Made by a program: the position numbers and the translations under genes
Notes under the pieces: generated by a model
What the model saw: the letters and a program-made list of their open reading frames with translations, nothing else
What the model was told of the DNA's origin: nothing
The model's database searches: none
Origin: Acidobacteriota bacterium
GTDB lineage: Bacteria; Acidobacteriota; Terriglobia; Bryobacterales; UBA6623
Direction of reading: 5' to 3'
NCBI GenBank assembly: GCA_016125275.1
Contig: WGMB01000001.1
Location: 186,001 to 250,000 of the forward strand
Length of the DNA: 64,000 bases
Part shown: positions 2-10,798 of the stretch, piece by piece
How positions within the stretch are numbered: position 1 is the stretch's first letter
Layout of the letters: each line of letters starts with the position of its first letter

Positions 2-865
2 ATGTTTCGCGAGGCGGCCAAGCAGTACGAGGAGAACGGACAGGCGATCCGGGCGCGGCAGGCGCTGGCCAACGCGGCTCTCTACGACTACCTGACGGCG
101 CGGACGCCGGAGACGCTGGGCGCGGCGAGCCGCAGCCTGGAGCACATCGACGAGATCGAGGCGCCGGGCTCGCGCGACGAGGTGTTGCAGGCGGCCGATC
201 TGCTGGCCGAGTTGCAGGGGCGGCAGTTCGAGATGCTGGCCTTTCAGGCCCAGGAGCAGCCGAACCGGGCGCTGGACCTGCACCGCAGCGCGGCGGGCTG
301 CTTCCGCAAGCTGATCGGCAAGGACTTGCAGACCTACCGGCTGATTCCGACGGGTTTCCACGACGGCTCGGCGCAGGAGCGCTACTTCTTCCACGAAGGC
401 CACGCAGCCTACTACAGCGGCCTGCAACTGCGCTATGCCGACCCGGAGGGCGCGGCCGGGCTGATCAACACCGCGGCGCAGCACTTTCGGCAAGCCGGCA
501 ACGGCGACTGGCAGCAGCGCTGCACGACGTTGCAGGCGGATTTGCGGGCGAAGCGCACCTGCTGGTTCTGCCACAGGGAGATGCAGGGCGTGGGGCTGAA
601 CGTGGACTTCTATCCGGCGCGGATCACGCAGTACGCGCGGGAGCTGATTGCGCGGCTGGACCAGGACAAGTCGTCGCTGCACCCGGAGGGCGGCCAGGCG
701 GCCATCTGCATCGTGTGCGCGACCGCCATCCAGAGCCAGGCGGACGCTTACGCCGAGCAGCGCGTGGCCGAGCTGCGCGCCGAGGTCGAGCCGCAGTTCG
801 CGGCGCTGGCGCGGCAGATCGCGAGCCTGAGCAGCCGCATCGACAACCTGCGCTTCAGCCAGTGA
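2..865 (+). CDS. Helical protein with two CxxC pairs, first gene of HerA/SbcCD operon (5' end may be cut)
   Basis: Unrecognised 287-residue (as seen) protein. The reading frame is open to the window edge and the first ATG lies at base 2, so the true start may be outside the window. The first ~180 residues are alpha-helical and TPR-like (for example FREAAKQYEENG). Two cysteine pairs, C187/C190 (CWFC) and C236/C239 (CIVC), are spaced like a split zinc site, and the last ~45 residues look like a coiled coil. It sits 13 bases before a zinc-ribbon protein in the same direction, in an operon that continues to SPFH, NurA, HerA, SbcD and SbcC. A scaffold or adaptor role is inference from context only; the zinc site is inferred from Cys spacing. 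Confidence 0.75.
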   Translation: MFREAAKQYEENGQAIRARQALANAALYDYLTARTPETLGAASRSLEHIDEIEAPGSRDEVLQAADLLAELQGRQFEMLAFQAQEQPNRALDLHRSAAGCFRKLIGKDLQTYRLIPTGFHDGSAQERYFFHEGHAAYYSGLQLRYADPEGAAGLINTAAQHFRQAGNGDWQQRCTTLQADLRAKRTCWFCHREMQGVGLNVDFYPARITQYARELIARLDQDKSSLHPEGGQAAICIVCATAIQSQADAYAEQRVAELRAEVEPQFAALARQIASLSSRIDNLRFSQ

Positions 866-878
866 ACCGGAAACTTTG

Positions 879-2666
879 ATGGACGCCGCGGAGATCCAGA
901 GGCTGCTCGACAGCTTCGACATGCAACTGGCCGAGGGCCGCATCGACCTGGCGACCTACCAGGAGCTGAGCGGGCGCTGGCGGGCTCGGTTGGGCGAGGC
1001 TCCGGCCGCCGCGGCGCCGCCTCCGCCGCCGCCGGTGATTCCGATCGAGCAGGACGTGGAGGCGGTGAAGGTCTCCTGCCCGAACTGCGGCGGCTCGCTG
1101 GAGGATTCCACGCCGGGGTCGGACGGGATGCACGAGTGCCTGTTCTGCGGGCACAGCTACCGGGTGCAGTCGGCCAAGGCGAAGCTGCAGGAGGAGTTGC
1201 AGCAGTGGCTGGGGCAGTATGTGTCGGAGCAGGCGCGGTCGACGGTGGTGGATTCGGCGTCGCGCAGCGTGATCTTTCAAGACAAGCTGCTGCCGAGCTT
1301 GGAGAGGGATTTCGACCGGCTGTTCGAGAACGTGGACGGGTACCGCGAGCATCCGCTGATCGAGCTGCCGCTGGCGAGCCGGTTCGGGCCGGCGTTTTCC
1401 GGCGGGCTGCTGTCGACGCGGCGGGATCTGCTGGCGCCGGTGAAGAGCCTGTCGACGCGGTTGCAGTCGCCGGCGCTGCGGGATTTTGCGGTCAAGGACG
1501 AGGGCAAGCGGCGCCTGGAGCGGATGGAGCGGCGGATCACGGAGATTCTGCACGTGGCCAACGCGCTGGAGCAGACCCAGCGGCCCTACGCCGAAGGCGC
1601 GAACGGCGCGCTGCGCAGCCTGGGGGCGATCCGCACGTCGTACATCGAGAGCTTCGACGAGGCGGGCCCGGAGGAGCAGGCCTTTCTGCGGGCGGTGCTG
1701 GCGCGGATCGAGGCGGCCGAGACGAGCCTGACGGTGCTGCGCGACATCGAGGCCGGCGGAGACCTGCCGGGGGAGTCGCTGGCGACGCGGCTGGACCAGG
1801 CCGTGGAGAGGTACCGCGAGGCGATCGGCATGGCCGAAGCCAGCGGGCACTCGCCGCTGGAGACGGTGCCGTGGCAGCGCGGCGCGCAGCGGGAGCTGGG
1901 GCTGGTGCAGCTCCACGCGGGCTTGTTGCGGGCGTATGAGGAAGCCGCGGGGGCGGGCGTTTCGAGCTACCCAAAGTTCCAGTCCGACGTGCTGGGCTTT
2001 GTGCAGGCGGCGGATTTGCCGCTGAGCGAGCCGGCGGAGTTGGAGGTGACGGTCCTGCAGTTGGGCGAGATCGTTTCCGCGGCGCGCGGCGACAGCGGGT
2101 TGCCGCGGGTGCGCGACTGGAACTGGGTGGACGCGGCGGTGGAGGACCGTCGGCGGAAGGCCAAGTTCGGCTTCATGGGCGTGAACGAGGAAGTGGCTTC
2201 GGTGGTGCGCTGCTGGCGGCCGTTCTGGGCGGCCTCGGTGAGCTATTCGCAGGCCAGCGGCGTGGTGCTGCGCAGCGGCGCGGCGGCGCAGGCGTTTCTG
2301 CTGCTCGACGCGCTGGACCGGCGGCAGGCGCAGATCAGCCGGGTGCCGCTGGACGCCGGCTGGGGGCCGCAGATCCAGTCGGCGCTGGGCCGGCCGGCGG
2401 CGGACTCGCTGCTGACGCTGCCGGCGCTGGTGGACCGGCAGCGGGCGCAGCGGATGCTGGAGGCTTCGGTGCGGGGGAACCCGCAGTTCCCCAACGGGCG
2501 GGTGAAGGTGGAAGGGGTGCTGTGGCTGCCGTCGGTGGTGGCGCACTACCAGTCCAAGGAAGGAGCGCGGGCCGAAGAGGTGATCCCGATCGAGAGCTAT
2601 CGGGCGGACATCCAGTCGATACGGGGAGCGACGGCGCGGTTCCGGCAGAGTGTTTTGGGTTCGTAG
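879..2666 (+). CDS. Zinc-ribbon protein with N-terminal SHOCT-like hairpin
   Basis: A 595-residue protein starting at ATG 879; a TTG immediately before it is in frame but less likely. Residues 3-38 form a short helical hairpin resembling SHOCT modules (DMQLAEGRIDLATYQ), followed by an Ala/Pro linker (43-53) and a four-Cys zinc ribbon (C67, C70, C87, C90). The remaining ~500 residues are mostly predicted helical and I do not recognise them. The same hairpin recurs at the C-terminus of the SPFH protein encoded next, 21 bases downstream, which suggests the two proteins meet or share a partner. No signal peptide. The function is unknown; placement in the NurA-HerA-SbcCD operon suggests a membrane-associated or DNA-end-associated accessory role (inference). 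Confidence 0.8.
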   Translation: MDAAEIQRLLDSFDMQLAEGRIDLATYQELSGRWRARLGEAPAAAAPPPPPPVIPIEQDVEAVKVSCPNCGGSLEDSTPGSDGMHECLFCGHSYRVQSAKAKLQEELQQWLGQYVSEQARSTVVDSASRSVIFQDKLLPSLERDFDRLFENVDGYREHPLIELPLASRFGPAFSGGLLSTRRDLLAPVKSLSTRLQSPALRDFAVKDEGKRRLERMERRITEILHVANALEQTQRPYAEGANGALRSLGAIRTSYIESFDEAGPEEQAFLRAVLARIEAAETSLTVLRDIEAGGDLPGESLATRLDQAVERYREAIGMAEASGHSPLETVPWQRGAQRELGLVQLHAGLLRAYEEAAGAGVSSYPKFQSDVLGFVQAADLPLSEPAELEVTVLQLGEIVSAARGDSGLPRVRDWNWVDAAVEDRRRKAKFGFMGVNEEVASVVRCWRPFWAASVSYSQASGVVLRSGAAAQAFLLLDALDRRQAQISRVPLDAGWGPQIQSALGRPAADSLLTLPALVDRQRAQRMLEASVRGNPQFPNGRVKVEGVLWLPSVVAHYQSKEGARAEEVIPIESYRADIQSIRGATARFRQSVLGS

Positions 2667-2687
2667 GCGCGGAGCGAGGGTTTTGCC

Positions 2688-3968
2688 ATGGGCGTGATCA
2701 ATTGGCTTCTGTACAAGGTGGGCGGGCTGGTGGACAGCGTGGAAGACGCCGCCACGGGGATGGCGACGCGCGGCGGCCGGCTGGCCATCCAGTGGCCGCA
2801 TGACCGCCGGCCGGGGCTGATTTGGCGGGTTCCGGAGCCGGAAACGGTGCCGAAAGCCGAGCGCGTGACCACGGCCAGCATCTTCGTGAGCAAGCAGCCG
2901 GTGGTGGTGCGCGAGTACGAGCGGGCGCTGGTGCTGCAGGACGGCCGCAACCAGGGGCTGCTGGAGCCGGGGGTTTACGACCTGTCGCGGGCGCCGGTGA
3001 CGGGCCGCATCGAGATCATCTGGGTGATGCTGCGCGACGCCCAACTGCGCTGGGGCGTGGGCGGCGTGATGTCGTCGGACTTCGTGACCGTCGGCGGGCA
3101 CGGCAAGGTGATCGTGAGCGTGACGGACGCCGAGAAGTTCGTGCTGCAGTTTGCGGCCGGGCGGGACGAGCTGACGCAGAAGGCGCTGGAGGACTGGGTT
3201 CGGGACCTGGTGGGCGGGGTGATTCGGCAGCAGTTCGCGTCGCGGACGGCGCAGGAGCTGAACCAGGACCGCGAAGGCTTTATCCAGGTGTGCCGCGAGA
3301 AGCTGACGGGCCTGTTGGCGGAGTGGGGCCTGGGGTTCAAGCACATCGAGGTGGACATCAACCTGGCCGGCGAGTACACGGCCGCCGCGCAGCAGGTGGC
3401 GGTGACGGGGTTCCGCAACCAGCAGGCGCTGATGGAAGCGCAGATGGAGGCGCAGCGGAAGCAGTTGGAGGCGGCGGCCGAGGCCAACGCCATGCTGTCG
3501 AAGGGCGCGGCGGAGGTGCGCATCATGAACATGCTGCAGCAGAGCGGGCTGGACCCGATGCGGCTGGAGATGGTGAAGGCCTTGCAGAGCTACGCCGAGA
3601 CGCCTTCGGGCGGCGGCGGGCTGATCGGCGGGGACCTGCACAAGGGGCAGGCGTTCGCGGCGCTGACACAGGCGCTGCTGGACCCGGGGATGCCGCCGCA
3701 GGTGAAGCAGACGCTGCGCGACAGCTATCCGGAGGAGGCCAAACAGATCGAGGCCCCGGGGGCTGGGTCGCCGCCGCCGGCGGTGCAGGCTCCGGCGATC
3801 GAGCAGGCCGCGGCGCCGGCGGGGCCGGGCGGGGGGATGAGCCGGGAGAAGATCGAGCAGATGATCGAAGGCCTCGATACGCAACTGGCCGAGGGCAAGA
3901 TCACCGACGAGCAGTACGAGCAGAGGGTGGCGCGCTGGGAGAAGCGGCTGGCGGAGTTGGACGCCTGA
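2688..3968 (+). CDS. SPFH/band-7 family protein with C-terminal SHOCT-like hairpin
   Basis: A 426-residue protein. Residues ~60-270 match the SPFH (stomatin/prohibitin/flotillin/HflKC) pattern: a beta-rich domain that begins REYERALVLQDG, then the helical stretch rich in Ala/Glu/Gln (QALMEAQMEAQRKQLEAAAE) typical of these oligomerising proteins. There is no strong N-terminal membrane helix, so membrane contact would be peripheral. After a Gly/Pro/Ala linker the last ~43 residues repeat the hairpin seen in the preceding gene (DTQLAEGKITDEQYEQ). SPFH proteins form large ring or raft-like assemblies at membranes; their presence beside NurA/HerA/SbcCD is unusual. ATG 2688 follows a purine-rich GCGAGGG. 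Family call is firm; role in the operon is inference. Confidence 0.87.
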   Translation: MGVINWLLYKVGGLVDSVEDAATGMATRGGRLAIQWPHDRRPGLIWRVPEPETVPKAERVTTASIFVSKQPVVVREYERALVLQDGRNQGLLEPGVYDLSRAPVTGRIEIIWVMLRDAQLRWGVGGVMSSDFVTVGGHGKVIVSVTDAEKFVLQFAAGRDELTQKALEDWVRDLVGGVIRQQFASRTAQELNQDREGFIQVCREKLTGLLAEWGLGFKHIEVDINLAGEYTAAAQQVAVTGFRNQQALMEAQMEAQRKQLEAAAEANAMLSKGAAEVRIMNMLQQSGLDPMRLEMVKALQSYAETPSGGGGLIGGDLHKGQAFAALTQALLDPGMPPQVKQTLRDSYPEEAKQIEAPGAGSPPPAVQAPAIEQAAAPAGPGGGMSREKIEQMIEGLDTQLAEGKITDEQYEQRVARWEKRLAELDA

Positions 3969-4002
3969 GGCGGCGGGCCCCAGCGGGCATGGGGAGCCCG
4001 GC

Positions 4003-4989
4003 GTGAAGTTGCGACTCGATCCTTGGGACGCGGAGTACGGCGCGGGCTTTTCCGGCGGCGACGACGTGGTCGGCGAGGAGACGCCGGAGGGCGTGGACCT
4101 GGAGGCCGAGGCGCCGGCGGGCGAGTGGGGGCCGGTGGAGCCCTCGCAGGGCGCGGAGATCGGCGAGGTCTGCTTTGTGGACGGCGTGCGCCGGCTGGAG
4201 GCGCGGCTGTCCGTGGAGCACGGAGGCGTCTACGGCTACGGCGCGATGGGCAGCGGCGCGGTGGGTGCGGTGCGGTTGGACGGCGAGACGGCGGTGTTCG
4301 AGCGGCTGATCGTGGACCGGCTGCTGGCGGTGGGGCTGAGCGAGCTGCCGGAGCCGGTGAAGCTGGCGGCGGCGGCGACGTATCGGCCGATTCCGGCGAA
4401 CGATCCCACTGCGGACGGTCCGCTGCAAGCGATTCACAACGAGATGCGGAAGCTGGAGGAGCGGCTGGGGCGCGAGCTGGCGGCGGCTCCGGAGCGGCTG
4501 GTGGTGGCCGACGGTCCGCTGACGTTTGCGGAGCCGGCGCACGGCAACGTGGTGGGCTACATCAAGCGAGTGATGCGTCCGTATCTGCCGGCGGCGCAGT
4601 TGCGGGTGGTGGCGGGGCTGCCGAGCGGGGCGCGGTCGCCGCTGTTCGGGTTGCGCTCGTCGCAGAGATTCGAGAGGCTGTCGTGGTTTCTGCGGTTGCA
4701 GGCGCCGCGGCCGGGCGACTCGGAGTTTGCCGGCGTGGTGCGGCTGGAAGTGGCTGCCGAGGCGGGCGCGGAGCGGGCCAGGGCGCTGGCGGACGCCTGC
4801 TGCGCGCTGCTGCCGCCGCTGAGCGGGCGGCGTGGCCTGGACGCGCGGGCGCCGCAGAACCTGTTGCCGATTGCGGCGCTCGAGAATCGGCTGCGGCGGC
4901 AGATGGGCGATCAACGCATCGCCCGGCGGCGGATCGAGGCATGGATCTCCAGAGAAGCGGGGCAGGCGGCGTTCGATGCAAGGGCTTGA
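4003..4989 (+). CDS. nurA: NurA-domain nuclease
   Basis: A 328-residue protein starting at GTG 4003, with GGGGAG just upstream. It shows the NurA pattern of acidic motifs: FVDG with D60 (motif I) and VVADGPL with D170, followed by a C-terminal RLQAP/RLEV segment. NurA is a 5'-3' exo/endonuclease that works as a dimer docked on the HerA translocase hexamer to resect DNA ends with Mre11-Rad50. The next gene encodes HerA and overlaps this one by 14 bases, the coupling expected for subunits of one complex. The sequence is diverged from archaeal NurA, so the call rests on the two Asp motifs plus context; I am fairly sure of the family but not of activity. Confidence 0.8.
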   Translation: MKLRLDPWDAEYGAGFSGGDDVVGEETPEGVDLEAEAPAGEWGPVEPSQGAEIGEVCFVDGVRRLEARLSVEHGGVYGYGAMGSGAVGAVRLDGETAVFERLIVDRLLAVGLSELPEPVKLAAAATYRPIPANDPTADGPLQAIHNEMRKLEERLGRELAAAPERLVVADGPLTFAEPAHGNVVGYIKRVMRPYLPAAQLRVVAGLPSGARSPLFGLRSSQRFERLSWFLRLQAPRPGDSEFAGVVRLEVAAEAGAERARALADACCALLPPLSGRRGLDARAPQNLLPIAALENRLRRQMGDQRIARRRIEAWISREAGQAAFDARA

Positions 4990-6652
4990 TCTGAAAGAAC
5001 GGGAAGACGTGGGCGTGGTGCTGGGCTCGCGAGACAGCGCGCCGCTGTCGTTCTGGGTGGGCGTGCGGGCCGGCGCGACGGTGCAGCTCGACGACTTGAT
5101 CGTGGTGGACACGCAGACGCCGGACGGGCGGCCGATCGCGTATTTCGGCATCGTGGACGAGGTCGCCAAGCGCTTCGAGGGCCAGACCTACGATACGGAC
5201 GCCTTTCTGGTGGCGGAGAACGCCTTGCCGGCCGAGGTCGCCTATGTGGCGCACGTGCAGGTGACGCGGCTGGAGCCGGAGGTGTTCGTGCCGCCGCACC
5301 CGGGCTCGACGGCGGCGGTGGTCCACGGAGAGGCTTATCAGCGGGCTCTGTCGTTCGACACGATGGAGCGGAAGGCGGTGATCGGCATCACCCGGACTGG
5401 CGAGGCGGTCTACGCGAACCTGGAGTTTCTGGACGGGACGCGGGGCGCGCACGCTTCGATCAGCGGGGTGTCGGGCGTGGCGACGAAGACGTCGTACGCG
5501 ACCTTCCTGCTGTACTCGCTGTTCCACTCGGATGCGCTGGGGGCGGACGCGACGAACTCCAAGGCGATCATCTTCAACGTAAAGGGCGAGGACCTGCTGT
5601 GGCTGGACCAGCCGAACAGCAAGCTTTCGGAGGAGGCGCGGGCGCAGTACGAGCGCCTGGGCCTGCCGGTGGGGCCGTTCCGGTCGGTGCGGCTGTTCGC
5701 GCCGGCGAAGCGGGGAGACCGCATCGCGCCGGATACGGGCGGACGGTTCGAGGGCGTGGACCCTTACGTGTGGAGCTTGCGGCAGTTTGCGCGGGAGAGG
5801 CTGCTGCGCTTTGCCTTTGCGGGGGCCGAGGACGCCCGGCAGCAGTTGAGCTTTGTGGTGACGCGGGTGGAGCGGGTGCTGGAGAAGGCCGCGCAGGAAG
5901 GGAACTTGCAGGACCCCACGATCGAGGTGGCGGGGACGCGGCTGCACGACTTTCAGGAGCTGACGGATCTGCTCGACGGCGGGGCGCTGGACCAGATGGC
6001 GCCGAACGCGGCCTCGGGGACGCTGGACGCCTTTCGGCGGCGGCTGCACGCGGCGGCGCACCACATGGGCCATCTGGTGAGGGGGGACGAGGAGGCGGCC
6101 AAGTATCCCATCGACTGGCGCTCGTCGCAGGTGACAGTGATCGACATCCACCGGCTGCACGCCACGGCGCAGTTGTTCGTGGTGGGGGCGATCTTGAAGC
6201 GGGCGATGGAGGAGAAGGAGGCCAAGGGGACGTCCAAGCCGTTGCAGTTCATCGTGCTCGACGAGCTGAACAAGTACGCGCCCCGGCAGGGCTGGTCGCC
6301 GATTCAGGAGACGCTGCTGGACATCGCTGAGCGCGGGCGGTCGCTGGGGGTGTCTCTGTTTGGGGCGCAGCAGACGGCCAGTGAGGTGGAGCGGCGGGTG
6401 GTGTCGAACGCGGCGCTGCGGGTGGTGGGCCGGCTGGACGCGGCCGAGGCCGAGCGCGACGAGTACCGCTTCCTCGGGCGGGCGACGCGGACGCGGGCGA
6501 CGGTGCTGCAGCCGGGCTCGATGATCGTGTCGCAGCCGGAGATTCCGGTGCCGATCCTGCTGCGGTTCCCGTTTCCGGCGTGGGCGACGCGGGCTTCGGA
6601 AGCGGACCGGGACTTTGACGAGGACGAGCTGTTCTCGAGGATGGGGGAGTAG
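4976..6652 (+). CDS. herA: HerA-like DNA translocase ATPase (DUF87)
   Basis: A 558-residue HerA/FtsK-superfamily ATPase. I place the start at ATG 4976, overlapping the end of nurA; the frame is open upstream to ATG 4832 but that would bury the start deep in nurA. Residues 1-110 form the HAS-barrel-like N-terminal domain. The P-loop region reads GVSGVATKTS (164-173), one residue longer and less Gly-rich than the usual GxxGxGKS. Walker B is VLDELNKYAP, followed by FGAQQT and an Arg-containing RVVSNAALRVVGR segment typical of HerA. HerA hexamers pump DNA and feed NurA. The downstream sbcD begins one base after the stop codon. Confidence 0.88.
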   Translation: MQGLDLKEREDVGVVLGSRDSAPLSFWVGVRAGATVQLDDLIVVDTQTPDGRPIAYFGIVDEVAKRFEGQTYDTDAFLVAENALPAEVAYVAHVQVTRLEPEVFVPPHPGSTAAVVHGEAYQRALSFDTMERKAVIGITRTGEAVYANLEFLDGTRGAHASISGVSGVATKTSYATFLLYSLFHSDALGADATNSKAIIFNVKGEDLLWLDQPNSKLSEEARAQYERLGLPVGPFRSVRLFAPAKRGDRIAPDTGGRFEGVDPYVWSLRQFARERLLRFAFAGAEDARQQLSFVVTRVERVLEKAAQEGNLQDPTIEVAGTRLHDFQELTDLLDGGALDQMAPNAASGTLDAFRRRLHAAAHHMGHLVRGDEEAAKYPIDWRSSQVTVIDIHRLHATAQLFVVGAILKRAMEEKEAKGTSKPLQFIVLDELNKYAPRQGWSPIQETLLDIAERGRSLGVSLFGAQQTASEVERRVVSNAALRVVGRLDAAEAERDEYRFLGRATRTRATVLQPGSMIVSQPEIPVPILLRFPFPAWATRASEADRDFDEDELFSRMGE

Positions 6653-6653
6653 C

Positions 6654-7820
6654 GTGCGCATTCTGCACACGTCGGACTGGCACGCCGGGAGGATTTGGAA
6701 GGGGCTGAACCGGCTGGACGAGCTGGAGCGCTGCCTGGAGCAGATGGCCCGCTATGTGGAGAGCGAAGGCGTCGACCTAGTGCTGATGACGGGCGACGTG
6801 TTCGATTCGGGGGCGCCGTCAGCGGAGGCGGAGCGGGCGGTGTTCCGGTTCTTCAAGCGAGTGGGCGCGGCGGGCGCGCAGACGGTGGTGATCGCGGGCA
6901 ACCACGACTCCGGCGCGCGGCTGGAGGCCTGGAGCCTGCTGGCGGAGCTGGTGGGCGTGAGGGCGCTGGGAAGGCCCCGCAAGGCCGCTGACGGCGGGCT
7001 GATGGAGCTGCGGACGGCGGCGGGCGAGACGGCGCAGGTGGCGGCGGTTCCGTTTGCGGCGCCGCGGACGCTGGTGAGCGCCTTGGAGCTGGCTGACGAC
7101 GAGTCGCGCTCGCTGCAGAGCTACGCCGAGCGGATGGGGCGGCTGGTGCAGTCGCTGACGCGCCGCTACCGCTCGGACGCGGTGCGGCTGCTGTGCCTGC
7201 ATACGCACCTGGAGGGCGCGGTGAAGTCCGGCTCGGAGCGGCAGGTGCACGTGAACGAGGACTGGGCGGCGACGCCGGCGGGGTTGCCGGCCGATGCGCA
7301 CTACATCGCGCTGGGCCACATCCACAAGCCGCAAGAGGTGCGGTCATCGCCGTCGCCGGCGTTCTATGCCGGGTCGCCGTTGCAGCTCGACTTTGGCGAG
7401 GCCGGCGAGCAGAAGAGCTTTGTGGTGATCGACGTCCAGCCGGGCACTCAGCCGGCCCGGTTCCAGCGCGTGCCGTATGAGGGCGGCAAGGAGCTGCGGC
7501 GGGAGCGGATGACGCTGGAGCAACTCACGGCGGCGGCCGAGAGGCTGAAGGGCAGCGGTTGGCTGCGGGTGACGGTCCCGCTGGAGTCGGCGGACCCGGA
7601 GATGAACCGCAAGGTGCGGGAGCTGCTGGGCGCGTCGGCGCTGGCGGTGGACGTGGAGCTGCCGCGGGAGAAGGGCGAGCAGGAGCTGCGACCTTCGCTG
7701 GAGCTGGAGGGGCCGCGCAAGGTGTTCGAACACTACTACCGGCGGCGGCACGAGCGGGAGGCGCCGGAGGCGCTGCTGGAAGCGTTCGAGGCGCTGCGCA
7801 AAGAGGTCGAGGGATTCTGA
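6654..7820 (+). CDS. sbcD: Exonuclease SbcD / Mre11-type nuclease subunit
   Basis: A 388-residue metallophosphoesterase. The start is GTG 6654, one base after the herA stop and preceded by GGGGGAG. All five Mre11/SbcD motifs are present: HTSDWH (D8, H10), GDVFDSG, GNHDSG, LHTHLEG and LGHIHKP, which bind two Mn ions. With SbcC it forms the ATP-dependent nuclease that opens hairpins and trims blocked DNA ends. Its stop codon overlaps the ATG of sbcC (ATGA), so the two are translationally coupled. Length is normal for the family. The bacterial SbcCD pair is common; its placement behind nurA-herA is not. Confidence 0.95.
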   Translation: MRILHTSDWHAGRIWKGLNRLDELERCLEQMARYVESEGVDLVLMTGDVFDSGAPSAEAERAVFRFFKRVGAAGAQTVVIAGNHDSGARLEAWSLLAELVGVRALGRPRKAADGGLMELRTAAGETAQVAAVPFAAPRTLVSALELADDESRSLQSYAERMGRLVQSLTRRYRSDAVRLLCLHTHLEGAVKSGSERQVHVNEDWAATPAGLPADAHYIALGHIHKPQEVRSSPSPAFYAGSPLQLDFGEAGEQKSFVVIDVQPGTQPARFQRVPYEGGKELRRERMTLEQLTAAAERLKGSGWLRVTVPLESADPEMNRKVRELLGASALAVDVELPREKGEQELRPSLELEGPRKVFEHYYRRRHEREAPEALLEAFEALRKEVEGF

Positions 7821-10798
7821 TGCGGCCCTTGAAGCTCCAAGTGGAAGGGTTTACGTGCTACCGAGAGCGGCAGGAGATCGACTTCGAGCGGCTGAAGCTG
7901 TTTGCGATCGCCGGGCCGACGGGGGCGGGGAAGTCGACGCTGCTGGACGCGATCACGTTCGCGCTGTACGGGCAGATTCCGCGGATGGGCAGCCGCAACC
8001 TGGACGAGTTCATCAGCCTGGGGGCGAAAGAGGCGTCGGTGGCGCTGGACTTCGAGCTGCACGGGGGGCGCCGCTACCGGGTGGCGCGGACGATGCGGCG
8101 CTCGGGGGCGAAGAAGGCTCAGCTCGAGGAACTGCGGGAGAGCGGGCCGCAGCCGTTGCAGGACGGCGTGACGGCGGTGAATCAGGCTTTGACGCCTTTG
8201 CTGGGGCTGCGCTACGAGACGTTCGTGCAGGCGGTGCTGCTGCCGCAGGGCAAGTTCGCGGAGTTCTTGCAGGGGGACAAGGGCAAGCGGCGCGAGATTC
8301 TGCGGGAGCTGCTGCGGCTGGGCGTCTACGAGGAGATGCGCAAGCGCGCCGAGAGCCGCAAGAGGGAGCTGGAGACCGAGCTCAAGACGCTCGACCAGCG
8401 CCTGGAGCAGGACTACGGCGAGGCGACCGCAGAGAACCTGGCGGCGCAGGAAGCCGAGGAGGCCGCCCTGGTCGCCCAGTGCGCGCAGGCGGAAGTCGAG
8501 GCAGGGCGGCTGGCGCAGGAGGCGCAGCGGCTGAACGCGCTGTGGGCGCTGCAGGCGGAGCTGGCGGCGAAGCGGCGGGCGCTGGAGGGCAAGGAGGCCG
8601 AACGGGGCAAGGTGGAGAGCGACCGCAAGCGCGCGCAGAGGGCGCGGCGGGCGGCTGCGCTGCGGCCTTACCTGGAGCGCGTGAGCCGGGCGGCGGCGGA
8701 GAGGGACGAGCGACGCGGGGAGGAGGCCGGCGCGGTCACGGCGGAGCGGGCGCGGCTGGCCGGGAAGGAGCAGGCGCGGGCGGCTCTGGCGGAGGCCACC
8801 GAGGCGGCCGCGGAGGTTCCGGCGCTGCGGACCCGGCGGGAAGAGCTGCTGGCGGTGCTGCCGCTGCTGCCGGAGAGGGACCGGGTCGAGCAGAGCGCGA
8901 AGGGTTTGCAGGCGGAGCTCGCGAAGGAGCGGGCGGAGGCCGGCCGGCAGAGGGAGGAGGCGGAGAAAAGCCGGGCGGACGAACGCCGGTTGGCGGAGCG
9001 GTTGGCGGCGCTGGTGGAACGGCAGGCGGCGCTGGGGTATGACGGGGCGCGGCACGAGCGGCTGCTGGGGTTGCGCGAACCGGCGGGCGAGCTGCGGAGG
9101 GTTCGGCCTGAGCTGCGGACCGTGAGCGAACGGCTGGGGGCGCAGCGGGAGGCGCTGGAAGCGGCACGACGGGAGAGCGCCGCGGCGGCGGTGGGGCTGG
9201 AGGAGGCCGAGCAGGCGGTGCGGGCGGCGCGGTCGGCGGACATGGCGGCGGACCTGCGGCGGCATCTGCATGCGGGCGACAACTGTCCGGTGTGCGGCCA
9301 GTTGGTGGATGTCCTGCCCGAGGTTGCGCCGGGCGCGGACGTGGGCGCGCTGGAGCGGGCGGAGAAGGCGGCGCGCGTGGCGAGCGACGGGGCCCGAACG
9401 AGGCTGGCGAGCGCGGAGAGCGCTCTGCGCGAGCGGGAGGGGCGGCGCGAGGAGCTGACCGGCTTGGCGGCGCGGCTGGAGGCGCTGCTGCGGGAGTCCG
9501 CGCCGGAGCTCGGCGGAGACGAGGCGCCGGAGGAGGCGACGCTGGCCGCGCTGGAGGAGATCGACCAACAAAGCCGCGAGCGCCAGGCGATCGAGAAGGA
9601 ATGGAATGCGCTGGAGATGCAGCGGCGGGAGGCGGAAGGCGCAGCGCAGCGCGCCGCCGACGCCGCGGCTCACGCGGAGAAGGCGGGGACCCGGCTGGAG
9701 CAGGAACTGGCGGCGGCACGGGAGCGGCTGGCCGAGTACGGCGAGCGGATCGCGGCGGCGGGTTCGGCCGATCCCCAGCGCGACAAGGGCCTGCTGGAGC
9801 GCCGCATCGAGGGGCTGACGAACGTCTTCGAGAAGGCCCGCCAAGCGGCCGAGCAGGCCGAGGCGGGCTGGCGCGAGGCGGCGCAGACGCTGGCGGTGGC
9901 GCAGAGCGCTCGGCAGGCGGCCGATCTTGCGGCGGAAGAGGCTGCGGAGAGCGCCGAGAGGGAGTCGAGAACGGCGGGCTTCCAGGGTGAGGAGGAGGCT
10001 CGGGCCGCCGCGCTGGCGGCAGAGGAGCTGGCGGCGCTCGAAGCGGGGATCGAGCGGTATGAGCGGGACGTGCAGGCGCTGCGGGCGGCGATCGAGGGCC
10101 TGGAGGAACGGCTGGGTGGGGCGCGGGTGGACGAGGAGCAGGTCAGGGCGGCGTCCGAGTCGGAAGGCCGGGCGCGCGAGGAGCTTCGGGCGCTGGTGGG
10201 CGGGCGGCATCGGCTGGCCGAGCGGCTGGAGGCGTTGCGCGCCGCAGTGGCGAAGGCCGCGAAGCTGCGGCAGGAGCGCACGGAGGTGGCGGGCCGGCAG
10301 GCGCTGCAGGCTGAGCTGGCGCTGGAGCTGCGCAGCGATCGCTTTCAGCAACACCTGCTCGACGAGGCGTTTCAGCAGCTCGTGGCGGGGGCTTCGGTGC
10401 GGCTGCGGCAGCTCAACGAGCGCTATTCGCTGCACTTCAGCGACGACGCCTTCGTGGTGCTCGATCACGACCATGGCGGCGAGCAGCGCTCGGCGGACAC
10501 TCTGTCGGGCGGAGAGACCTTTTTGGCGTCGCTGGCGCTGGCGCTGGAGCTCAGCGAGCAGGTGCAGCAGGCGGCCGGGGCGGTGCGGCTGGACAGCCTG
10601 TTCATCGACGAAGGCTTTGGGACCCTAGATCCGGAGACGCTGGACGTGGTGGCGGGCGCGATCGAGGCGCTGAGCGCGGGCGAGCGGATGATCGGCGTGA
10701 TCTCGCACGTGGCGGAGCTGCACCGGCGGCTGCCGGCGCGGCTGGAAGTGCGTCCAGGGCCCCAGGGATCGCGCGTGGAGCTGGTGGAAGCGGGCTGA
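7820..10798 (+). CDS. sbcC: Exonuclease SbcC / Rad50-type SMC ATPase
   Basis: A 992-residue SMC-like ATPase starting at ATG 7820 inside the sbcD stop. Walker A is GPTGAGKST (32-40). Two long coiled-coil arms flank a zinc hook CPVC (about C489/C492). The C-terminal half holds the ABC signature LSGGETF (~894) and Walker B LFIDEGFGTLD (~928). Two such heads with SbcD form the DNA-end-processing complex, and the hook joins complexes or arms. Typical length. It is the last gene of the operon; the next start codon on this strand is 170 bases away. Coiled-coil arms are extremely Ala/Glu/Arg-rich, consistent with the high GC content. Confidence 0.95.
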   Translation: MRPLKLQVEGFTCYRERQEIDFERLKLFAIAGPTGAGKSTLLDAITFALYGQIPRMGSRNLDEFISLGAKEASVALDFELHGGRRYRVARTMRRSGAKKAQLEELRESGPQPLQDGVTAVNQALTPLLGLRYETFVQAVLLPQGKFAEFLQGDKGKRREILRELLRLGVYEEMRKRAESRKRELETELKTLDQRLEQDYGEATAENLAAQEAEEAALVAQCAQAEVEAGRLAQEAQRLNALWALQAELAAKRRALEGKEAERGKVESDRKRAQRARRAAALRPYLERVSRAAAERDERRGEEAGAVTAERARLAGKEQARAALAEATEAAAEVPALRTRREELLAVLPLLPERDRVEQSAKGLQAELAKERAEAGRQREEAEKSRADERRLAERLAALVERQAALGYDGARHERLLGLREPAGELRRVRPELRTVSERLGAQREALEAARRESAAAAVGLEEAEQAVRAARSADMAADLRRHLHAGDNCPVCGQLVDVLPEVAPGADVGALERAEKAARVASDGARTRLASAESALREREGRREELTGLAARLEALLRESAPELGGDEAPEEATLAALEEIDQQSRERQAIEKEWNALEMQRREAEGAAQRAADAAAHAEKAGTRLEQELAAARERLAEYGERIAAAGSADPQRDKGLLERRIEGLTNVFEKARQAAEQAEAGWREAAQTLAVAQSARQAADLAAEEAAESAERESRTAGFQGEEEARAAALAAEELAALEAGIERYERDVQALRAAIEGLEERLGGARVDEEQVRAASESEGRAREELRALVGGRHRLAERLEALRAAVAKAAKLRQERTEVAGRQALQAELALELRSDRFQQHLLDEAFQQLVAGASVRLRQLNERYSLHFSDDAFVVLDHDHGGEQRSADTLSGGETFLASLALALELSEQVQQAAGAVRLDSLFIDEGFGTLDPETLDVVAGAIEALSAGERMIGVISHVAELHRRLPARLEVRPGPQGSRVELVEAG

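Follow-up and report, generated by a model that had tools for sequence, protein, structure and literature searches.

Does a run of seven closely packed genes, four of them for enzymes that process DNA ends, make up a single system, or do two separate groups of genes lie side by side? The question is raised by a 64,000-nucleotide (nt) stretch of contig WGMB01000001.1 (positions 186,001 to 250,000; assembly GCA_016125275.1, Acidobacteriota, Bryobacterales), referred to here as the window, at the start of which three genes designated g1, g2 and g3, encoding a protein with CxxC pairs, a zinc-ribbon-like protein and an SPFH/Band 7 protein, are followed by those for NurA, HerA, SbcD and SbcC. Our answer, to which we give a probability of roughly 0.78, is that two independent modules stand end to end: a DNA-end processing cassette and a rare, self-standing SPFH trio.

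Two results carry this answer. When the window HerA was used as a query against GTDB genomes and the best 80 of 497 relatives were taken as a set of HerA loci, no relatives of g1–g3 were found in any of the 80, either with single sequences or with four-sequence profiles. Conversely, g1, g2 and g3 occur in identical order in three other genomes (G627, G956 and G911), in none of which was HerA found at an E value of 1e-5, four control genomes having given matches. Because the trio was not seen in the HerA loci, nor HerA in the other trio genomes, we conclude that cassette and trio are evolutionarily independent modules and that the contact seen here is the only one found. The preliminary description of this DNA had made the SPFH and zinc-ribbon genes partners of the cassette, and had itself named homologues usually lying away from herA/sbcCD as the sign that they are not; all three of the other trios found lie in this way, and the partnership is not supported.

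Seven genes and two probable modules

The seven open reading frames (ORFs) lie on the same strand between positions 2 and 10798, no gap or overlap exceeding 34 nt. This much of the preliminary description stands, with the correction that g1 is truncated by the window edge: its full frame is 330 amino acids (aa) long and opens at L001:7873, 128 nt outside the window (8000 is subtracted from L001 numbering to give window numbering). The features are as follows.

2..865, + strand: g1 (window part), an ORF with relatives in G627, G956 and G911
879..2666 (ATG at 879, or TTG at 876), + strand: g2, zinc-ribbon-like, an ORF with relatives in G627, G956 and G911
2688..3968, + strand: g3, SPFH/Band 7 protein, matching Pfam Band_7
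3969..4002, + strand: 34-nt g3/NurA junction, where trio and cassette meet
4003..4989, + strand: NurA nuclease, matching Deinococcus NurA
4976..6652 (ATG start), + strand: HerA DNA translocase, matching Deinococcus HerA
6654..7820 (GTG start), + strand: SbcD, Mre11-type nuclease, by TIGR00619 and motifs
7820..10798 (ATG start), + strand: SbcC, Rad50-type ATPase, by a TIGR00618 match (below cut-off) and motifs

From g1 to NurA, neighbouring genes are separated by 13 (or 10), 21 and 34 nt; NurA and HerA overlap by 14 nt, HerA and SbcD are 1 nt apart, and SbcD and SbcC overlap by 1 nt.

The cassette recurs widely. There were 52 loci with at least 1.3 kilobases (kb) upstream and at least 7 kb downstream of HerA, the 28 others of the 80 being left out for want of flank, and in 46 of the 52 NurA, SbcD and SbcC all lie on the strand of HerA (six lack one or more). 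Two gene orders are seen, NurA-HerA-SbcD-SbcC (n = 18) and HerA-SbcD-SbcC-NurA (n = 28). In 40 of these loci, including all 18 with the first order, no two consecutive frames are separated by more than 110 nt; the remaining six, all with the second, have gaps of 0.6–3.7 kb. The cassette loci are labelled Acidobacteriota, Actinomycetota, Chloroflexota, Spirochaetota, Myxococcota and Armatimonadota, those labelled Pseudomonadota being partial clusters on short contigs. No extra operon partner recurs across the set among the 25 largest neighbour clusters listed, which are all confined to actinobacterial loci. Within the relatives of the home genome the cassette is patchy, NurA being matched in seven of 100 genomes (the genome itself, five clear matches and one weak).

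A tree of HerA made by a quick method, with no bootstrap, groups the window copy with those of L009 and L010 (both Bryobacterales) with a value of 99 in the Shimodaira-Hasegawa-like approximate likelihood-ratio test (SH-aLRT). This Bryobacterales group is nested in a 13-row clade bearing six phylum labels: Acidobacteriota, Spirochaetota, Myxococcota, Armatimonadota, Pseudomonadota and, via L018, Actinomycetota. The bin of L018, titled ‘Bifidobacterium breve’, has probably been misnamed, as its cassette pairs with that of an acidobacterial metagenome-assembled genome. A further Acidobacteriota clade of eight rows stands apart from the 13-row clade.

The trio is, by comparison, thinly spread. 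In 42 HerA-bearing genomes drawn from those of the 80 loci, g3 has one weak match (25% identity, 8.1e-7). Across 199 genomes of the phylum, g3 was found at an E value of 1e-20 in its own genome alone, and g2 in its own genome with two short weak matches near 7e-4 besides; in 250 genomes of the order, g1 was found at 1e-3 in its own genome alone. Searches around the other carriers gave g3 in one of 188 genomes in the phylum of a Sorangiineae genome, and g1 in one of 251 genomes in the phylum of a Chloroflexota genome and in two of 240 genomes in the class of the first hit, the first hit itself counted. None of 396 genomes of an actinobacterial phylum contained g3 at 1e-20, in a search made without a positive control. 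Plasmid protein searches gave no match for g1, g2 or g3, a phage protein search gave none for g2 (g1 and g3 were not tried there) and viral contigs held no relatives of any of the three. In G911 (Chloroflexota; L101:8834-10434) the C-terminal part of g1 and the N-terminal part of g2 are missing, and with them most zinc-binding residues, as if a single internal deletion had taken both zinc-binding parts.

The independence of the two modules has to be weighed against several points. At least 4.2 kb of sequence was available upstream of the cassette in 60 of the 80 HerA loci, and on at least one side in 68, but the upstream flank is shorter than 4.2 kb in the other 20. No more than three other trios came to light; g1 and g2 are truncated in one of them, and another lies on a contig of only 5,493 bases. 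The g3–NurA junction (3969-4002) contains no promoter-like or terminator-like site and its fold is not unusual (z 0.23), which, with a 34-nt gap and a common strand, is compatible with a single transcript; judged by spacing, both modules are possibly transcribed together. Nor do guanine-cytosine content (GC) and its value at third codon positions (GC3) separate g1–g3 from the four genes that follow; a foreign composition of g1–g3, for which neither measure gives any sign, was rejected. There may, finally, be a lineage-specific functional link between g1–g3 and the cassette. On the reading of two independent modules, the trio would probably have come to lie next to the cassette by rearrangement or transfer.

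Proteins of the cassette and of the trio

By sequence, genes four to seven make up a NurA-HerA-SbcD-SbcC cassette that belongs to the Deinococcus NurA-HerA type and has intact catalytic motifs. HerA matches that of Deinococcus radiodurans (4.4e-144) over residues 8-544 and has the P-loop GVSGVATKT at 5465-5491, an unusual form (G[I/V]SG[V/I]ATKT) found in all 81 HerA frames of the set. NurA matches Deinococcus NurA (PDB 7f6d; 8.7e-25) and scores 18.2 bits against Pfam NurA, below the cut-off of 21, for which reason it went undetected in a Pfam search of its own genome. In the alignment, D60, K188 and R282 are the equivalents of D53, K201 and R309 of the Deinococcus protein (the 20-residue offset between structure chain and published numbering was counted by hand), mutation of which is reported to abolish nuclease activity (PMC9960219; papers are cited by PubMed Central number, PMC, and for excerpts of their text). 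The D and R motifs are present in 59 of the 60 NurA frames of the set, the sole exception being the split frame of L011. The window locus has two marks of the Deinococcus-type pair, adjacent orthologues and the catalytic D, K and R.

SbcD passes TIGR00619 (160.7 bits, cut-off 77.65) and contains the motifs DWHAG, GDVFDSG, GNHDSG, LHTHLEG and GHIHKP. SbcC matches TIGR00618 at 5.9e-89, its 299.3 bits being below the cut-off of 478.5, and has a Walker A, a zinc hook (CPVC, 9284-9295), a signature and a Walker B; the names of the motifs in both proteins are those that we take to apply. A mid-protein CxxC is present in 52 of the 59 long SbcC frames of the set.

How does this cassette compare with known systems? 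With NurA-HerA of D. radiodurans it shares the HerA and NurA matches, the unusual P-loop and the three catalytic residues, but the window cluster continues with SbcD and SbcC. D. radiodurans is said to be without Mre11-Rad50 in the excerpt of one paper (PMC12977600), and in that of another the link of its NurA-HerA with its sbcCD is left open (PMC4663267). The archaeal nurA-herA-mre11-rad50 operon unites the same four functions, but the window has an SbcD and an SbcC of bacterial type and a HerA of Deinococcus type; the proposal that the set is the bacterial counterpart of the archaeal four genes is borne out, with gene order conserved across phyla. That SbcD and SbcC can be encoded downstream of a bacterial HerA is already known from the hepA-sbcD-sbcC cluster of Oceanithermus profundus (PMC5448004), which resembles the present one in having HerA and then SbcD and SbcC in a bacterium; O. 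profundus belongs to the Thermales, and the loci described here carry other phylum labels.

Several defence systems also make use of HerA. DUF4297-HerA and Sir2-HerA resemble the cassette in pairing a HerA translocase with an effector enzyme, but the nuclease here is NurA, and the window HerA is far from membership of the two NCBIfam anti-phage HerA families, scoring 14.0 and 15.6 bits where 800 and 850 are required. In the HerA/FtsK-anchored capture systems, a HerA-type translocase is proposed to channel invader DNA to nucleases (PMC12839542, in excerpt). None of 32 neighbours of the home locus matches a PADLOC model, PglZ, DUF6079 and DUF4007, the partners in such capture systems, not having been sought by name. 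The cassette does not qualify as MADS, which we take to comprise a mad8-type HerA with other mad genes: HerA matches mad8 (1e-11) and SbcC matches mad3 (3.1e-20), but SbcC matches LmuB better (2.6e-25), a likeness that SMC-type ATPases may share, and none of the 32 home neighbours fits any PADLOC model at 1e-20.

The proteins of the trio are less familiar. Two CxxC pairs lie in the C-terminal third of g1 (CWFC, 560-571; CIVC, 707-718) and two more in g2 (CPNC, 1077-1088; CLFC, 1137-1148), and neither protein reaches the cut-off of any Pfam or NCBIfam family. The helices of g1 are seen only in a low-confidence model: single-sequence AlphaFold models of the window part of g1 and of g2 have a mean predicted local distance difference test score (pLDDT) of 49 and 52, respectively, and were rejected as too poor for use. 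By contrast with its two neighbours, g3 scores 58.2 bits against Pfam Band_7 (cut-off 23.6), and 23.7 against Band_7_1 (cut-off 24), where its relative in G956 reaches 37.4 bits.

A SHOCT-like hairpin is common to the N-terminus of g2 (879-998) and the C-terminus of g3 (3837-3956), with 15 of 40 residues identical and an alignment score of 81 against a maximum of 40 among 1000 shuffles. The likeness suggests that g2 and g3 might dock to each other or to a common partner. The g2 proteins of G627 and G956 lack the hairpin. The domain to which SHOCT is most often joined is reported to be Band 7 (PF13421) (PMC3581485, PMC11237479, in excerpt). No clear transmembrane stretch was found in any of the seven proteins by hydropathy, the highest 19-residue value being 1.37 and no dedicated predictor having been run; the membrane tethering that had been suggested is unsupported. 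The trio is probably built of a soluble SPFH ring or scaffold and zinc-binding adaptors with SHOCT-like hairpins. Its nearest parallel is YdjI-like SPFH with zinc-ribbon neighbours in the Bacillus ydj operon, which is linked to the phage shock protein (PSP) response and likewise joins a Band 7 protein to a zinc-ribbon partner; the differences are that g1 and g2 match no family and that the window proteins have no clear transmembrane stretch. In the open-licence PMC literature we found no report joining HerA, NurA and SPFH in bacteria.

Repair or destruction of foreign DNA

The task of the cassette would be DNA-end resection or degradation. By orthology and with motifs intact, SbcC and SbcD would recognise ends that are blocked or form hairpins and open them, and the duplex would be pumped by a HerA hexamer into a NurA dimer and cut there, as in the 6:2 HerA:NurA complex with ATP-driven digestion of ends that marks the Deinococcus type. 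The preliminary description had proposed a machine for repair or for the destruction of foreign DNA; its seven-gene form is not supported, and destruction keeps some standing from defence neighbours of the cassette elsewhere.

The first possibility is housekeeping double-strand-break repair, in which SbcCD and NurA-HerA would work together to resect ends before recombination, a role already proposed in archaea; we would give it very nearly even odds. The four functions are those of the archaeal operon (PMC4663267, PMC12977600, PMC5448004), the Mre11 of Sulfolobus is reported to interact with HerA (PMC2288612) and hepA mutants of Thermus to be sensitive to UV and heat (PMC5448004), each paper in excerpt. 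The neighbourhoods of L026, L066 and L060, in the other Acidobacteriota clade, also fit: judged from N-termini, these loci share housekeeping-looking genes upstream of NurA. On the other hand, deletion of nurA and herA in Deinococcus is reported to give approximately 10-fold more resistance to far ultraviolet light and mitomycin C (PMC9960219, in excerpt), the spread of NurA among relatives is patchy, as described above, and known or candidate defence genes are found near the cassette in six of 21 scanned loci.

These defence genes bring in the second possibility, that in this lineage the cassette serves against phages or plasmids, degrading foreign DNA from its ends in the manner of other defence complexes of HerA and a nuclease, with g1–g3 an unrelated neighbour. 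Three sets of loci were compared: set A, 11 loci from the sub-clade of the window copy, with 89 scanned neighbours; set B, ten loci of other Acidobacteriota and Chloroflexota with 105; and set C, a control of ten actinobacterial loci with 137. Genes had been called in 12, 13 and ten loci, respectively; L020 yielded no neighbour calls, and L066, L041 and L023 were left unscanned. Excluded from set A were calls shorter than about 100 aa (L018:22-288 was retained), a further four of 101–126 aa from L014, L018 and L011, as well as two antisense to core genes; from set B, four calls belonging to L026 and L022 were excluded.

Defence genes, known or candidate, were found in four of the 11 loci of set A. 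In L012, Shango SngA, SngB and SngC (L012:3102-8870) end approximately 240 bp before NurA, and on the downstream side there is a type I restriction subunit. In L014, Wadjet JetA-JetB-JetC (L014:15939-21347) begins 18 nt past SbcC, and NurA is preceded by genes for a helix-turn-helix protein, a capP-like peptidase and a DUF1883 protein (L014:7087-8959). In L018, DarT and DarG are encoded some 7.6 kb upstream of the cassette; L011 has a GajA-like protein along with PDC-S68. PD-T4-6 matches in this set were taken for what is presumably an ordinary kinase. The count does not include the capP-like peptidases found in L009 and L014; CapP is reported to be related to a protease that senses single-stranded DNA (PMC10904395, in excerpt, where NurA and CBASS are mentioned separately), and these two peptidases could be damage sensors. 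Two loci that differ in phylum label have a DUF1883 gene directly ahead of NurA (L019:422-733 and L014:8693-8959).

Two of the ten loci of set B have defence genes. In L025, a type III-CBASS-like set of cyclase, HORMA, TRIP13 and NucC (L025:1591-4740) lies upstream of NurA, with NucC ending approximately 16 nt before the likely NurA start and the TRIP13 frame spanning only the C-terminal half of its model; in L040, GajA and GajB are near the cassette. Reverse-transcriptase-type, type I methyltransferase and specificity matches were also obtained in this set and are not attributed to a locus. No locus of set C has a defence system, although three proteins match SNF2-type models of the defence library. 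In L044, L049 and L059 (Acidimicrobiia) there are large genes after NurA that are probably these three matches. We found no report of NurA-HerA-SbcCD beside these defence systems in the open-licence PMC literature.

Is this more than chance? Set B was intended as background but itself proved to have defence genes, and set C was added later. Fisher tests give p 0.055 for set A against the control (4/11 versus 0/10) and p 0.074 for sets A and B together (6/21 versus 0/10), but p 0.70 (6/21 versus 3/10) if the SNF2-type matches are taken as three defence loci, all three values coming from related loci and from sets chosen after the fact, with no background drawn from whole genomes. As the contrast between the sets vanishes once the SNF2-type matches are counted, less weight is given here to defence and more to repair. 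At the home locus itself, none of the 32 scanned neighbours (26 of 32 downstream calls and six upstream genes) matches any PADLOC defence model at 1e-20; the gene upstream of the cluster is sugar-isomerase-like by sequence reading alone, and the next frame downstream opens 34 nt past SbcC. The proximity of defence genes to the cassette is suggestive at most.

Beyond the neighbourhoods, the defence reading is favoured by the six phylum labels of the HerA clade, by DUF4297-HerA being a phage-defence nuclease (PMC11291478) and by a 2026 study of Thermococcus HerA-NurA that disputes direct resection and favours a possible antiviral role (PMC12977600), both papers in excerpt, and is disfavoured by the want of defence matches among the scanned home neighbours and the housekeeping-like genes at L026, L066 and L060. 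Overall, an anti-phage or anti-plasmid cassette in this lineage is unlikely, if well short of fanciful, and destruction of foreign DNA in the cross-phylum sub-clade is a serious possibility; the role of the cassette may differ by clade. More doubtful again is the bolder proposal that the cassette, above all in the 13-row sub-clade, is an undescribed anti-invader system for DNA-end degradation, moving together with Shango, Wadjet, CBASS and Gabija. The third possibility, one SPFH-tethered DNA-end machine of all seven genes, is very improbable, contiguity on one strand being outweighed by the separate occurrence of trio and HerA, the single weak g3 match among HerA-bearing genomes and the want of a clear transmembrane stretch.

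What, then, does the reading of two independent modules mean? A tempting seven-gene ‘system’ is removed as unsupported, and the g1–zinc ribbon–SPFH trio becomes a small module in its own right, with two proteins that match no family of Pfam or NCBIfam. The cassette proves to be wider in bacteria than Deinococcus-Thermus, the phylum named in the papers cited, and in some lineages stands directly against known defence systems, making the choice between repair and defence testable in mesophilic bacteria. Were the cassette indeed an anti-invader system, the bacterial debate over resection versus antiviral roles for HerA-NurA would be settled toward defence.

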